From Veillonella intestinalis (GTDB lineage: Bacteria; Bacillota; Negativicutes; Veillonellales; Veillonellaceae): 64,000 bases of DNA. This document shows, piece after piece, positions 39,920-48,512 of this stretch. The notes beneath the pieces are model-generated. The model made no database searches and was not told the DNA's origin. It saw only the letters and a program-made list of their open reading frames with translations. A program made the translations under genes and the position numbers. Within the stretch, counting starts at the first letter, position 1. The number at the start of each line of letters is the position of its first letter. The DNA lies in NCBI RefSeq assembly GCF_943193155.1, contig NZ_CALPDB010000001.1, positions 186,001 to 250,000 on the forward strand, given 5' to 3'.

Positions 39920-42310
39920 GTGCAGGCTAAAGTTAACATACTATATAACTATTTAAAACAAGCCATTCAGGCCGGACTCTATTTTTTTACTATTACAGAA
40001 TGGGGTGCTTTGTTGTGGTTAGCACCAGCCTGGGGGATTGTAATAGCTTATGGAATGTCTTATGAGTTTACTAATCCTATGATCGTTCTATTAAACAGTT
40101 CTTGGTATTTTATTTGGCTACTATTACAGCGATATAAAAAGAATGGCAAGAGTAAGTATATTTATGTTAATTTGTTCCAATTTAGTAATTCTTATCAGTT
40201 AGTTAGGACAGGCGCTACATCATGGCATAGTTTAGTAGTTGTCATTTTAATAATAATTAGTTTATTAGGCTTTGGCATGTATCGAACTCAACAAACAATA
40301 GATAATTATAGGGGGATTAACCCTTATTATGTGGGGGCTACAGGAATTTATACCTTGCGAGTAACAAACTTACCAGAAATAGCTACTGTAAATGGAAATT
40401 CTTATTGGCATTTAACCGGTGAATTAGTTGCCATGGATCCGCAAAAAGAAACAATTGGAAACTGTCAATTACCAGCTGAAGGGACTATTGTTGCTTATAT
40501 TGTGCCGTCTAAAACAGTGCTGTTTAACAAAATTTTGCCAGGTCAATATATAGCGGTTAAAGGTAGTATTAGCAAAACAAAGTTTGCGCCCGAGGAAGGG
40601 CGTATTGATTTACGAGCTCGTTATATTACTGATCATAGAATGGGGACTTTGTATGAAGGTGATATGGTAGGCCTTGTCCCGATGAAAGAGTTACCTTGGG
40701 GTACGAAAATAAGTAATTCAATAATGGGCATGTTAGGGTTTCTTCGTTATGAATGTGGTGATGTATTGAAGGCTCATTTGCCAGGAGCGCTTGGAGAGAT
40801 GAGTCAAAGTTTATTACTCGGTGGTGGCTATAATTCATTGGATGAAACGATTATGGATTCATTTGCAAAAACAGGGTTAATTCATATTTTATCCGTATCT
40901 GGCTCCCATGTAGCACTTTTATTTGGCTTTTTATTCGTAGTAGCTTCATGGCTCGGTATTAGTAAAAGACGAGCGACTTATGGCGCTATTATATTCGTAA
41001 TTTTATATTGCTCAATAGTTGGGTATAATCCACCAGTGGTAAGGTCTGCTCTCATGGGAATTATTATGGGGCTTGGGATTATTGAAGGGCGATTATATCA
41101 AAGTCGACAAGCCTTACATATAAGTGCTGCAGTACTATTATGTATGGAGCCATTATTATTGATGGATGTTAGTTTTCAATTATCTTTTGGTGCTACTTAT
41201 GGAATTTTGTTATTTGGTCGTAGTATCTACCAGCGGTTACCAAAGGGGTGGCCCTATGTAATGGGGCCACTAAGTTTATGTATAAGTGCGCAATTATTGA
41301 TATATCCATTGCAATTATATTATTTTCACTTAATGGGCTTAGGCGCTTTTATAGCGGCTATTTTAGTAGGTCCTATTTTAGATTTAGCTATTTTAGGGGC
41401 AGCTATATTACTTTTAATGAATTTAATAGTGGATATATCATTAGGTTGGAATGTTCTAGCATGGCTTTTAAAAGGAGCCTTATTCTTAAATTTTTCTATT
41501 GCTAATATACCTGGCTTTGTTAATTATTGGGGCGCTTTAACTATTATGGCAGGTTCTCTTTATATATTAGGTTGTCGATTTTTATATTATTATTTTTCAG
41601 AATCAAGAATGCTCTATTGGTGGCGCGAAGCAATGATTGTCATGGGGCTTATGGCCTTATTGTTATTACCAATACATAGTATATTTCAAAGGTCTGTATA
41701 TGTTCATATAATTCCACTATCGCAAGGCGCCGCTTTTTTGGTGGTAAAGGAAGAACCTTTTAAAGGGCGAGTCGGTTGGCTTCATGTAGCGACGGAAGGA
41801 AAAACCTTATCTCGTGTATCACAGGGCGCCATTGTTAATGCTGTACATTATTATGGGATTACTAAACCGCAGCAAATTTCTTTAGGGGGAGTAAAGCAAA
41901 CTGAAGACACTAATTTAGAACCTTTAATGACTTCACTGCATTGGTCATTTCAGGATTTACATAAAAGTCAAATCAATGAAGACATTTATATTGGGCAATG
42001 GACTGGAGATTTTAATGGCATTTTTGAGGAGCAACCTAATGCCGTAATTGCAAGGGGCGCGCATGGAGGATTCCTATTCAGTAATGGACAAAACAGTAAA
42101 AAACATCTAAAATTAAAAGAGATGAAATCATATATTGTTGGAACTACAAATGCCGTTTTAGCCACGTCTCATAATCGAGATGAAGCGAATAGTTTCCCTG
42201 TCCTTGTGTATTGGTCGAATGGAAATAAACGGAGTGAAGTAGACGTAGATCCAGCCGATGAAAATCGATATATTACGGGCACAACTGTGATCCCGGATTT
42301 TTTATTGTAG
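39920..42310 (+). CDS. comEC: DNA uptake channel ComEC/Rec2
   Basis: 796 residues. An N-terminal membrane region with an OB-like extracellular domain (residues ~120-240) precedes the competence domain, with HILSVSGSHVALLFGFLF and VVRSALMGIIMGLG. It transports single-stranded DNA into the cytoplasm. From about residue 592 the metallo-beta-lactamase-like region begins (VYVHIIPLSQGAAFLVV), but no HxHxDH metal motif can be found. The start is a GTG at 39920, with GAGGAGG 9 bases upstream; the ATG at 39915 is out of frame. holA follows after 8 bases. Confidence 0.93.
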   Translation: MQAKVNILYNYLKQAIQAGLYFFTITEWGALLWLAPAWGIVIAYGMSYEFTNPMIVLLNSSWYFIWLLLQRYKKNGKSKYIYVNLFQFSNSYQLVRTGATSWHSLVVVILIIISLLGFGMYRTQQTIDNYRGINPYYVGATGIYTLRVTNLPEIATVNGNSYWHLTGELVAMDPQKETIGNCQLPAEGTIVAYIVPSKTVLFNKILPGQYIAVKGSISKTKFAPEEGRIDLRARYITDHRMGTLYEGDMVGLVPMKELPWGTKISNSIMGMLGFLRYECGDVLKAHLPGALGEMSQSLLLGGGYNSLDETIMDSFAKTGLIHILSVSGSHVALLFGFLFVVASWLGISKRRATYGAIIFVILYCSIVGYNPPVVRSALMGIIMGLGIIEGRLYQSRQALHISAAVLLCMEPLLLMDVSFQLSFGATYGILLFGRSIYQRLPKGWPYVMGPLSLCISAQLLIYPLQLYYFHLMGLGAFIAAILVGPILDLAILGAAILLLMNLIVDISLGWNVLAWLLKGALFLNFSIANIPGFVNYWGALTIMAGSLYILGCRFLYYYFSESRMLYWWREAMIVMGLMALLLLPIHSIFQRSVYVHIIPLSQGAAFLVVKEEPFKGRVGWLHVATEGKTLSRVSQGAIVNAVHYYGITKPQQISLGGVKQTEDTNLEPLMTSLHWSFQDLHKSQINEDIYIGQWTGDFNGIFEEQPNAVIARGAHGGFLFSNGQNSKKHLKLKEMKSYIVGTTNAVLATSHNRDEANSFPVLVYWSNGNKRSEVDVDPADENRYITGTTVIPDFLL

Positions 42311-42318
42311 GAGAAGCT

Positions 42319-43290
42319 ATGGCGATACAGTTACTATATGGTGATGAGTCACAGCTCATAGAAGAAAAAAAGCAAGCCTTTTTAAAGGTCCATTCGGATT
42401 TAACAGTTCAAATGTTAAATGATGAAGTGGGCGCAAGGCGTATATGTGAAAAACTAAGTGAAGACTCTTTATTCGGGGAACCAACCTTATATTGTCTGGT
42501 CAATATACCTATTTTTGCTAAAGCGAATAAAAAAGTGAGTGATGAGTGGCAGCAAGTTTATGATATGTTGTTAACTTACGATGGGAATCATCCCGTTTTA
42601 TTGTTATATCATGAGACAATAGATAAACGGTTAAAGGCGAATAAGGATTTCTTAAAAGCTGTTCCTAATGAGGCCTGTGAACGATTAAAAGGGCCTGAAA
42701 TTGTTACATGGTTACAAACATATTGTAAATCTCATGGCTTTACTATGAGTGCTGATGGGATGGAATATATTCATCATTTATTAGAACTTTGGCAAGATGT
42801 ACCAGTTAGCTTTTTACGGACTGAATTTGATCGTTATTTTTTATTATTACCACCAAAAGGTCAAATTACGCAGGACTTTTTAATTGCTAATGGTAGTGAC
42901 TATGGAGCGAAAAATATTTTTTTATTTAAAGAAGCTCTCTTTAGAAAAGATGTAAACACTTTATTAGCTCTATTTCCTTATATGCTACAAAATAAAGAAG
43001 TAGAACGGGCTATGTCATATATTGAAGGTCAATTACGTTTACAGCTTATGGTAAGTGAGTGTAGAAGTAGTGGCTTAAGTGAGCGGGCGGTACAAGAATT
43101 GTTTAAAGAAGCTGGGTCAAACGTAAAAGCATATCCCATTACACTTGCTTATCGTCAAAGTCAACAAATTTCAATTCGTGCCTTGGCGAAATTATTACGT
43201 GGTTTATACGAAGTAATGCGTGATAGTCGTCGTGGTGAAGGGTCAGTGTCGTATTTTAAAGATTTATGTTTAGCCTATTGTGCTGAATAG
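42319..43290 (+). CDS. holA: DNA polymerase III delta subunit
   Basis: 323 residues. It opens with IQLLYGDESQLIEEKKQAF and shows the AAA+-like fold of HolA without a P-loop, ending in the C-terminal helical domain around AYRQSQQISIRALAKLLRGLYEV. It is the clamp-loader subunit that opens the sliding clamp. The ATG follows GTAGGAGA. Downstream of comEC is its usual Firmicutes place. Confidence 0.92.
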   Translation: MAIQLLYGDESQLIEEKKQAFLKVHSDLTVQMLNDEVGARRICEKLSEDSLFGEPTLYCLVNIPIFAKANKKVSDEWQQVYDMLLTYDGNHPVLLLYHETIDKRLKANKDFLKAVPNEACERLKGPEIVTWLQTYCKSHGFTMSADGMEYIHHLLELWQDVPVSFLRTEFDRYFLLLPPKGQITQDFLIANGSDYGAKNIFLFKEALFRKDVNTLLALFPYMLQNKEVERAMSYIEGQLRLQLMVSECRSSGLSERAVQELFKEAGSNVKAYPITLAYRQSQQISIRALAKLLRGLYEVMRDSRRGEGSVSYFKDLCLAYCAE

Positions 43291-44768: not shown

Positions 44769-47700
44769 ATGAAAGTACGCTATCATATAGTTCCCAAAGC
44801 TAAGCAAGAAACAGCGATGCTTATTGAGAGCGATGATAAGTCTATAAAAGTTAAAAATGTGCTGTCCTCAGAGGAAGCATTTAAATTATTACATAGTAAG
44901 TTAGATCATTGGTATAAGGAAAAACAAATTCAAGCTAAACAAGTTGAAGCCTATGAATCTACTGTCTTTGTGTATGACTGGGACAGTGAACCAATTCATG
45001 ATCATACGGCTGAGGAATATTGTTTTGCTGGAGGTTGTGATATTGCTGAGTTAATTGCTGAATTAGAAGAGCAACATAGAGAAGAGCTAGAACTCAAGCT
45101 TACTGATGCAGAAATTGCAGAGGAACAAGCGCTAGCAACTCAAATTTATTATGACAGTACTATGCCAGATGAAATGATAGCTATAGATAGGCTTGAGGCA
45201 ATGGATGCTAGTTTTGAGGATGAGTTTTTTCCCTTTGCTACAGCCGCTGATGAACCAATTCCTATGTATGAAGATCCCGTGTATTGTGATTATGTGCCGG
45301 CAAAATCGACAGTGCCCATTAGTGGTAGTAGCGGTGAAAGCGGTTTTGCCTATAAGGGCAAACGACGTCGCAGTTTTAAGCGGGATGTGACGGATCCTGG
45401 TATGTTATTAGGACCAACTATTGAAGGCGATTCCCTACCTATTGCTTCAGTGAATGAAGAAATGAATAATGCAATCTTTGAGGGGATTTTTGTTGGCTTA
45501 GTATTAATTAAGACAAAGACAGAAAAAGGCCTTATTAAAGGTAGTATTGTAGATGGCACGAATAGTATTCAGTTTGTAAAATTTGTAGATAATTATGAAG
45601 ATGCTGAAACACTCTTAAAAACAATGGAAAAAGTTAAGGGTGTGCGTGTGCAAGGGGATGTAAACTATGATGATAAATTTGAAAAAGATTACATCTTTAG
45701 TTTGCGCAGTATTCAAGAGTTAAAAAAGGAAAGAAAGCGCACAGAAAATAGAGCTGATTCTCGTGTAGAATTACACTTGCATACTAAAATGAGTGATCGT
45801 GATGCCTTAGTTAATGTCAAAGAGTTACTTCAAACAGTCAAAGATTGGGGTCATCCAGCAGTAGCTATTACTGACCATGGTGTTATTCAAGCTTTTCCAG
45901 AAGCGCAAGATATTGCTGGTAAATTAGGGGTTAAAGTTATCTATGGTGTGGAAGGCTATCTCATTGAAGATGAAGAAAATGATACTCGTTCACATATTAT
46001 CTTATTAGCGAAGAATACAGTAGGGCTTCGTAATTTGTATAAGATGATTACCATTTCCCACTTACAGTATTATAAACGCCGTCCACGCTTGCCAAGAGCG
46101 GTGATTGAAGATCATAGAGAAGGTATTATTATTGGCTCTGCCTGTGAAGCGGGTGAATTAATTCGCGCTATTGTAAAAGGGGAATCACAGGAGCGTTTAT
46201 TAGAAATTGCCTCTTTCTATGATTATTTAGAAATCCAGCCATTAGAAAATAACCGATTCTTACTATATGATAGACGAACTGGGGAGCAGATTCGCGAAGA
46301 ATCTTTTTTAGTTGATATAAATAAAAAAGTAGTAGAAATCGGTGAAATATTAAATAAGCCAGTTGTGGCTACATGTGACGTCCATCATTTGAATGATGAT
46401 GAGAAAATTTATCGGCAGATTATGCTTACTGTATCTGGGTTTAAAGATATTGAGCGTACACCATCTTTATATTTGCGCACAACGGATGAAATGTTAGAAG
46501 AATTCAAATATTTAGGTGAAGAAAAAGCCTATGAAGTTGTTGTTACGAATTCTCGTATGATTAATGATAGCATTGATACCTTACAGCCAGTTCCACAAGG
46601 TAAGACTTATTCACCTAAAATCGAAGGGGCCGATGATGAACTCACAGAGATGTGTTATAAAAAGGCAAAAGATATTTATGGAGATCCTTTACCAAAAGTT
46701 GTGGCTGATCGTTTGGATTATGAGTTGACTCGTATTATTGGTAATGGCTATGGCGTGTTATACTTCATTGCTCATAAATTAGTACGTAAATCCTTGGATG
46801 ATGGTTATTTGGTAGGGTCCCGTGGTTCGGTAGGGTCCTCTTTTGTAGCTACTATGGCAGATATTACAGAAGTAAATCCATTGCCACCGCATTATATTTG
46901 TCCAAATTGTAAGCATAGTGAGTTTTTTGAAAAAGGCGAATATGCAGGGGGCTTTGATTTGCCACGCAAGAATTGTCCGGAATGTGGTACGCCCCTTAAT
47001 ACGAATGGTCACGATATTCCATTTGCGATTTTTATGGGTTTTAATGGTGATAAAGTGCCTGATATTGACCTTAACTTCTCTGGTGATTATCAGCCTCGCG
47101 CTCATAAGTATACAGAAGAATTATTTGGTCGTGATAATGTATTCCGGGCAGGTACGATTGGTACGATTGCTGAAAAAACAGCTATTGGTTATGTAAAGAA
47201 ATATGCTGAAGCTCAGGATATTCAAGCGCGTCAAGGCTTCCTTGAAGCACTAGCTAAAGGTGTTACGGGCGTTAAAAATACAACAGGTCAGCATCCAGGC
47301 GGTATTATGGTCTGTCCACGTGATATGGATGTGCATCAGTTTACGCCAGTACAATATCCAGCGAATAAAAAAGATAGCGGCATTATAACGACTCATTTTG
47401 ATTATCACTCTTTTGAAGGTTGTATGACTAAACTTGATATTCTGGGCCATGATGATCCTACTATTATTCGTATGTTAGAAGATATTACAGGCGTAGATGT
47501 TCAGACAATACCATTTGATGATCCTGAAACCTTGAGTTTATTTTCCTCGACTAAAGCCATTGGTTTAACACCAGAGCAGTTAATGGGGGATAAAGTAGCT
47601 TCATTAGCAGTACCTGAGTGTGGTACGGGCTTTGTGCGGCGCATGCTGGAAGATTCAAAACCACAACATTTTTCTGATATAGTTCGAATTTCTGGTTTTT

Positions 47701-48512
47701 CACATGGAACGAATGTGTGGCTAGACAATGCACAAACGCTGATTAAAAATGGCACTTGCAAATTGAATGAAGCAATTTCTACTCGTGATGACATTATGAA
47801 CTTTTTAATGCATCGAGACATTGAGCCATTGACTTGCTTTAAAGTTATGGAAAATGTGCGTAAAGGTAAGGGCATAGATAAACTCAATAAGGTAGGGGAA
47901 AAGGAAACAGATTATGAGGACCAAATGCGGGCCGGTGGTATTCCTGATTGGTTTATTGATTCTTGTAAGAAAATCTCCTATCTATTCCCACGTGCTCACG
48001 CCGTAGCGTATGTTATGATGGCGTTCCGTATCGCTTGGTTCAAGATTAATTATCCATTAGCTTTTTATGCAGCCTATTATTCTATTCGAGCTAAGGCGTA
48101 TGATATGAAAATTATGGCTAGCTCCTTAGAAGTACAACGGGCTGAGTTTGAACGTTTAAAAGCTTTAGATAGAAAAGCGTCTAATAAAGATAAGGATATG
48201 ATGAGCGCTTTAGAAGTGTCTATGGAAATGAAACAGCGTGGTTTTAATTTCTTAGTAGCGGACTTAAATCATTCGGATGCACATCGTTTCAAAATTCATG
48301 ACGGGGCGTTGTTGCCACCATTTGTAGCCGTAGATAGTTTGGGTGAAAAAGTAGCTGATGCTATTGTGGCTGAACGTGAAAAGAGCCCATTTACATCGGT
48401 GAAAGATTTGCAGCGTCGTTGTAAGATTTCAGAAAGTATTTTGGCAACTATGCGTGATTTAGGCTGTTTTGGCGACTTGCCTGAAGATGAGCAAATGAGT
48501 TTATTTGGTTAA
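44769..48512 (+). CDS. polC: DNA polymerase III PolC-type alpha subunit lacking the exonuclease domain
   Basis: 1247 residues, about 190 shorter than Bacillus PolC. Order: N-terminal region with an acidic stretch (~90-120), an OB domain (~235-320), PHP domain from ELHLHT at 334-339, polymerase with GSRGSVGSSF at 683-692, a CX2C zinc motif pair, catalytic DIDLNF at 765-770, then helix-hairpin-helix. In PolC the DEDDh exonuclease is normally inserted in PHP; here GVEGYLIEDEENDTRSHIILLAKN (393-416) runs straight through with no FDxETTG motif. It is the Firmicutes main replicase; proofreading would need a separate protein. AGAAGGA precedes the ATG. Confidence 0.95.
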   Translation: MKVRYHIVPKAKQETAMLIESDDKSIKVKNVLSSEEAFKLLHSKLDHWYKEKQIQAKQVEAYESTVFVYDWDSEPIHDHTAEEYCFAGGCDIAELIAELEEQHREELELKLTDAEIAEEQALATQIYYDSTMPDEMIAIDRLEAMDASFEDEFFPFATAADEPIPMYEDPVYCDYVPAKSTVPISGSSGESGFAYKGKRRRSFKRDVTDPGMLLGPTIEGDSLPIASVNEEMNNAIFEGIFVGLVLIKTKTEKGLIKGSIVDGTNSIQFVKFVDNYEDAETLLKTMEKVKGVRVQGDVNYDDKFEKDYIFSLRSIQELKKERKRTENRADSRVELHLHTKMSDRDALVNVKELLQTVKDWGHPAVAITDHGVIQAFPEAQDIAGKLGVKVIYGVEGYLIEDEENDTRSHIILLAKNTVGLRNLYKMITISHLQYYKRRPRLPRAVIEDHREGIIIGSACEAGELIRAIVKGESQERLLEIASFYDYLEIQPLENNRFLLYDRRTGEQIREESFLVDINKKVVEIGEILNKPVVATCDVHHLNDDEKIYRQIMLTVSGFKDIERTPSLYLRTTDEMLEEFKYLGEEKAYEVVVTNSRMINDSIDTLQPVPQGKTYSPKIEGADDELTEMCYKKAKDIYGDPLPKVVADRLDYELTRIIGNGYGVLYFIAHKLVRKSLDDGYLVGSRGSVGSSFVATMADITEVNPLPPHYICPNCKHSEFFEKGEYAGGFDLPRKNCPECGTPLNTNGHDIPFAIFMGFNGDKVPDIDLNFSGDYQPRAHKYTEELFGRDNVFRAGTIGTIAEKTAIGYVKKYAEAQDIQARQGFLEALAKGVTGVKNTTGQHPGGIMVCPRDMDVHQFTPVQYPANKKDSGIITTHFDYHSFEGCMTKLDILGHDDPTIIRMLEDITGVDVQTIPFDDPETLSLFSSTKAIGLTPEQLMGDKVASLAVPECGTGFVRRMLEDSKPQHFSDIVRISGFSHGTNVWLDNAQTLIKNGTCKLNEAISTRDDIMNFLMHRDIEPLTCFKVMENVRKGKGIDKLNKVGEKETDYEDQMRAGGIPDWFIDSCKKISYLFPRAHAVAYVMMAFRIAWFKINYPLAFYAAYYSIRAKAYDMKIMASSLEVQRAEFERLKALDRKASNKDKDMMSALEVSMEMKQRGFNFLVADLNHSDAHRFKIHDGALLPPFVAVDSLGEKVADAIVAEREKSPFTSVKDLQRRCKISESILATMRDLGCFGDLPEDEQMSLFG

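Follow-up and report, generated by a model that had tools for sequence, protein, structure and literature searches.

The 64,000-nucleotide stretch of Veillonella intestinalis DNA analyzed here (the window) carries an intact polC open reading frame of 1247 aa (44769..48512, + strand, as for all features within it), recognized from its translation, from Pfam and NCBIfam-type models, and from structure alignments. Its product exceeds the curated cutoffs of TIGR01405 (1328.9 versus 1043.45 bits) and PRK00448 (1432.4 versus 873 bits) and has the domain order of PolC, OB-PHP-polymerase-HhH, with the OB domain N-terminal. The OB domain (residues about 228 to 322, approximate limits; 45450..45734) was delimited by its colinearity with the Geobacillus PolC structure 3f2b and by an AlphaFold model; the PHP domain (residues about 332 to 556, again approximate; 45762..46436) runs uninterrupted, as judged from the PF02811 match and from comparison of the model with the Mycobacterium tuberculosis DnaE1 structure 5lew. 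The polymerase motifs GSRGSVGSS (residues 683 to 691) and PDIDLNF (764 to 770) bound a segment at 46815..47078, with the zinc motif CPNC/CPECG (C711, C714, C736, and C739) between them. An earlier note had called these motifs intact, and their columns are indeed invariant in a six-row alignment (A1). The protein ends in EQMSLFG, within which QMSLF (48492..48506; Q1242 and F1246 invariant in A1) resembles QxxLF, given as a clamp motif in the available text of PMC12926913. Upstream of polC, 42319-43290 and 39920-42310 resemble by eye holA (clamp-loader delta) and comEC, respectively.

The same note had proposed that this PolC lacks the built-in DEDDh exonuclease, and Pfam, structure alignments, and ligand spacing all bear this out. 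Native Geobacillus/Bacillus-type PolCs have such an exonuclease in the PHP loop, according to the available text of PMC3919608. In the window PolC, Pfam finds a single PHP stretch at residues 334 to 490, confirming the reading of PHP as continuous from ELHLHT, which starts at residue 334, and no exonuclease domain at an E value of ≤0.001. The alignment with the Geobacillus protein 3f2b is unbroken from residue 227 to 1246; that with PolC 9qpc falls into two parts, separated between residues 402 and 408, where the 9qpc chain has 207 residues and the query 5. Over OB plus PHP, the two are 36 to 40% identical to the window protein, and their polymerase and zinc motifs are alike. Between the PHP ligands E395 (in GVEGY) and H409 (in HIILLAKN) lie only the 13 residues 396 to 408 (45954..45992), at the place occupied in other PolCs by the exonuclease, compared to 210 to 217 residues in exonuclease-bearing PolCs (26 rows). 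The deficit at the insertion point is thus about 200 residues, close to the 190 estimated earlier. In the PolCs without exonuclease (exo-less) that we scored, this loop has 12 to 33 residues and is longer only in L415 (39) and L110 (84). A search for an exonuclease motif elsewhere in the protein found none.

Distribution of exo-less PolC

The short loop is not peculiar to this assembly. It measures 13 to 29 residues in 28/28 family genomes (relatives 65 to 96% identical over the match), and it is also found in the class representatives that were opened. A search of 200 genomes of the class Negativicutes for PolC at an E value of ≤1e-100 matched 194, and the PolC matches listed for all 194 (149 genomes plus another 45) fall within open frames no longer than 1350 aa. 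Some of these frames are short (595 to 944 aa, for the matches of G021, G099, G103, G106, and G177), and the matches of seven genomes (G068, G099, G103, G106, G149, G156, and G177) do not span the junction; the PolC of G149, when opened, showed a 13-residue loop. Among the matches listed for the 200 genomes (to an E value of about 1e-22), no RNase_T domain fell in a class frame longer than 1012 aa. In the phylum set, by comparison, 37 of the 39 PolC frames that reach at least 1377 aa have a listed RNase_T match (E values of 7.7e-34 to 2.1e-48); the other two have no live exonuclease, G266 carrying an 84-residue linker and G334 a decayed exonuclease. Given the shared loop and the uniformly short frames, an assembly or sequencing error that deleted the exonuclease from the window gene, which the earlier note had named among the findings that would overturn its claim, is refuted by the relatives, and we give it practically no chance.

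Outside the class, match spans indicate exo-less PolCs in Moorella, Desulfosporosinus, Thermanaeromonas, Cuneatibacter, and Epulopiscium and an insert in Clostridium, Defluviitalea, Intestinibacter, and the Bacilli Lederbergia and Evansella. On a PolC tree (82 of 99 rows, 17 near-copies having been dropped, and L110 counted as exo-less), the exonuclease state needs 8 changes, at least 4 of them forced by starred branches, so that a single change is rejected; the direction of change was not inferred from this tree. The linker of L110 (the G266 PolC) looks to be of low complexity and is possibly a remnant, with no exonuclease detectable at the site. In G011, a separate 421-aa frame (G011:C26:53456-54352) matches only PolC residues 316 to 613 and may be a PHP-containing fragment or a paralogue.

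Exo-less PolC was described for Clostridia and Negativicutes as early as 2013 (PMC3919608), and it is the normal form in the class as sampled here. In the available text of that study, 6% of PolCs lacked the Exo insertion, all but one of them in Clostridia and Negativicutes, and the share was 16% within the PolC-plus-DnaE1 group. The trait looks commoner than these figures, since in our sample the frames are of the short size in all class genomes that have a PolC match. The window PolC, in having no Exo insertion, the same domain order, and a genome that also encodes a DnaE, is no different in kind from the exo-less proteins of that study. It fails the narrow PolC screen described in the accessible part of PMC11963600, which looks for RNaseT inserted in PHP; recognition based on that insert would miss the PolCs of the window's class. 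A 2026 survey (PMC12926913) reports three active proofreaders in most Clostridia, and the portion of it available to us holds no discussion of the exo-less class that we could find. Nor did we find, among open-licence papers, any test of which activity serves an exo-less PolC as proofreader.

The PHP site as candidate proofreader

The earlier note offered two consequences, that the replicase had lost proofreading or that it uses a separate exonuclease. The premise holds, in that the insert is absent, and stand-alone DnaQ-like proteins do exist in the genome, but the choice was incomplete because the likeliest option was left out: in other C-family replicases, the PHP domain has a zinc-dependent proofreading exonuclease activity of its own (PMC5636811, available text), and all nine of its metal ligands are intact here (H336, H338, D345, H370, E395, H409, C459, D537, and H539; 45774..46385). 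These residues give the pattern HHDHEH(C/H)DH of the M. tuberculosis DnaE1-type PHP exonuclease. We think that the window PolC probably proofreads through its own PHP domain, both the activity of the site and its use in replication being judged from sequence and by analogy. In this scheme, the trinuclear metal (zinc) site of PHP would take the frayed primer end and would then cut off the mismatched nucleotide, as in M. tuberculosis DnaE1; an additional contribution from a stand-alone DEDDh exonuclease is possible.

The predicted fold is consistent with such a role. In an AlphaFold model of residues 212 to 616 (mean pLDDT of 92.3 and pTM of 0.83, for the protein without metals), OB is followed by PHP in an uninterrupted fold. 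It matches PolC structures with a Z score of about 42 and DnaE PHP domains with Z scores of 28 to 33, among them 2hpi (32.7) and M. tuberculosis DnaE1 5lew (31.7; root mean square deviation of 2.1 over 262 aligned residues). The M. tuberculosis enzyme thus shares the nine ligands and a matching PHP fold with the window PolC. It differs in being of DnaE type, in having a demonstrated activity where that of the window PolC is presumed, and in a 29-residue loop by the site, compared to 13 residues here; because loop residues matter for activity in that enzyme (PMC5636811, in the text available), the difference counts against PHP proofreading in the window PolC.

PHP sites could be scored in 270 of 274 PolC rows (the search pattern did not catch the other 4; because of overlap between the sets, the rows are not independent). 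Outside genus g3, the motif HHDHEHCDH is found in 203/203 exo-less PolCs whose site is complete, one more row being gapped, and all nine ligands are invariant across 39 aligned exo-less PolCs. That the ligands are kept almost wherever Exo is missing favors the PHP as the putative proofreader. Retention alone is no proof of use, however, since the site is also intact in 54 of the 59 PolCs with an undecayed insert of exonuclease size; altogether 55 long-insert PolCs have it, one being G334, and in 5 others, 2 of which are named Bacilli, the second PHP Asp is Asn. Moreover, ligands may be retained for stability: as far as the available text of PMC5636811 goes, D23N or D226N each abolishes the proofreading activity of the M. 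tuberculosis PHP site, and both also reduce the stability of the protein.

Two further sets of genomes, which show how a PolC fares without the exonuclease, count in favor of PHP proofreading. In G334 (L414, genus g171), the 198-residue PolC insert can be aligned with the exonuclease of a family-mate, G219 (L134), but DIETTG has become ALATTG, HNAQFD has become PNPGSG, and neither the terminal H nor the terminal D is left, so that the DxE, HNAxFD, and HRAxxD motifs are all lost. The insert scores 8.8 bits against the DEDDh profile, compared to 170 to 203 bits for the three live exonucleases examined alongside it. The genus-mate G300 (L415) has only a 39-residue loop, and both PolCs retain all nine PHP ligands. 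At least in this lineage, the direction was loss, with decay coming before deletion.

The second set comprises genomes in which no DEDDh exonuclease is detected. PF00929 finds none in 18/200 class genomes and in 37/149 phylum genomes, some of these 37 being without PolC. We searched 21 PF00929-negative genomes again with a ten-row DEDDh profile, and the class genomes among them also with the stand-alone exonuclease described below as a query; the phylum ones were searched without it. The positive controls G000 and G070 gave three matches each, and 20 of the 21 gave none. The exception, G022, gave one match and was dropped from the list; its DEDDh exonuclease (G022:C33:203032-203770, L355) is detected by protein and profile queries and had been overlooked by PF00929, so that statements of absence depend on search sensitivity. 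We opened the PolC of 17 of the 20 empty genomes (all but G058, G177, and G186), and every one is exo-less with intact PHP ligands, including those of the one-contig, 98 to 100% complete genomes G049, G214, G220, and G297. Such genomes would be expected if PHP suffices, within the sensitivity of the searches.

The substituted PHP site of genus g3

The one genus of exo-less PolCs that departs from the pattern is g3, a member of the window's own family, whose persistence with a substituted PHP site speaks against PHP as the proofreader. All six g3 PolCs (L026 to L031, from G070, G128, G175, G151, G163, and G120) are exo-less and read HHNHEHCNH, with Asn at residues 345 and 537 in window numbering; by position in the nine-residue motif, these correspond to M. 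tuberculosis D23 and D226. Two more positions (495 and 497) are also changed in g3, out of 51 columns whose conservation reaches 97% or more across 166 exo-less rows. The nine PHP ligands of DnaE are kept in 28/28 family genomes, g3 included, and MutS-family genes are retained in g3. Substitution of both aspartates is apparently unreported; we found no mention of it in open-licence papers.

Rates of change were compared between the two regions of PolC. In favor of PHP proofreading, the PHP/Pol dN ratio is 5.85 in g3 (bootstrap range of 3.8 to 8.9, 60 resamples), compared to 2.0 (1.4 to 2.8) in sister genus g1 and 1.2 (0.8 to 1.6) in g2, the latter sampled at 8 of its 14 genomes. What raises the g3 ratio is mainly a very low polymerase dN (0.0097); for PHP, the g3 dN (0.057) does not exceed the values of g1 (0.095) or g2 (0.060), with the g3 genomes being closer to each other. 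In relative-rate tests, which are free of this difficulty, the g3 PHP was faster at P values of <0.05 in seven of eight comparisons (0.22 in the eighth), with no acceleration of the polymerase region in any of the eight (P ≥ 0.5); these comparisons share rows and are not independent, and the direct PHP-versus-Pol contrast reached a P value of <0.05 in only two of them. Four comparisons without g3 showed no PHP effect. Because many pairs had a saturated or undefined dS, we did not use dN/dS as a test. A long-term mutator signal in g3 is rejected, since the polymerase region is not accelerated.

It is conceivable, although we would not favor it, that the g3 PolC lacks both intrinsic proofreaders, having no DEDDh insert and a PHP with Asn substitutions and signs of relaxed constraint, and that fidelity is secured by a clamp-tethered stand-alone exonuclease or by the intact PHP of DnaE acting in trans; the family would then be a natural series from PHP to in-trans proofreading. 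Genus g3 is a natural test case for PHP proofreading. The question of the proofreader is directly testable, given the retention of PHP (g3 apart), the DEDDh-free genomes, the decayed exonuclease, and the doubly substituted g3.

Other possible proofreaders

The window genome encodes a DnaE (on C5; TIGR00594 score of 1312.2 bits, above the cutoff) with an intact PHP site. A search of the genome for stand-alone DnaQ-like proteins, as the earlier note had suggested, gave three RNase_T matches: a UvrD-type helicase, a KapD-like protein (KapD being the best model, below its cutoff), and a stand-alone DEDDh exonuclease of 223 aa with the tail EQMSFF (G000:C7, L002:1489-2106). This last protein is found in 28/28 family genomes, and a pattern search found the DEDDh motifs DFET, HNA(K/R)FD, and H(Y/N)ALDD in all 28; the tail is EQ(M/L)SFF in 22 family genomes and TQD(T/A)FF in the 6 g3 genomes. 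Its best NCBIfam match is PRK06195, a model of the DNA polymerase III epsilon subunit, although at 221.7 bits it falls below the cutoff of 373, as it does for TIGR00573 (68.7 versus 71.5 bits). It resembles Escherichia coli epsilon (DnaQ) in being a stand-alone DEDDh enzyme, and any binding of it to PolC would be conjectural.

Could this exonuclease, tethered to the sliding clamp through a tail much like the EQMSLFG of PolC, proofread in trans? Its presence throughout the family with conserved motifs and tail, and the epsilon model as its best match, are what one would expect, and such a helper might account for the way g3 manages with its altered PHP site. For the tail, clamp binding is a guess prompted by a resemblance to QxxLF. 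Exo-less PolC is class-wide, however, whereas only 134/200 class genomes have a match to the exonuclease at an E value of ≤1e-15, and outside the family, where 106 genomes matched, 19 of 22 inspected orthologues lack an LF or FF end, the other three ending in LF. We therefore consider proofreading in trans an unlikely main solution for the window PolC. Still less credible, and in our view quite improbable, is a main replicase without effective proofreading in a cell that depends on the selectivity of the polymerase and on mismatch repair. MutS-family genes are indeed present in 28/28 family genomes, with two matches each, and in g3 such a situation is a real possibility, but the PHP site of the window PolC is complete, and the site is kept in every exo-less PolC outside g3 with a complete site. 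Proofreading by the PHP domain of PolC itself thus remains the reading we prefer.

The helicase (L001:25-2595, on G000:C3) is of the UvrD/Rep type, with RNase_T at residues 493 to 650 inside UvrD_C (295 to 832). Its embedded exonuclease has PolC models as its best exonuclease match. We considered whether the PolC exonuclease had moved into it and rejected this: in a tree of 81 exonuclease domains (made by a quick method, with 32 of 78 inner branches open and 12 rows dropped by hand beforehand), the helicase domain forms a long branch by itself, without a supported link to the exonucleases of PolC, and the C7-type stand-alone exonuclease lies on another. Other families of the class also have RNase_T frames of a size similar to that of the helicase, some of which were opened.
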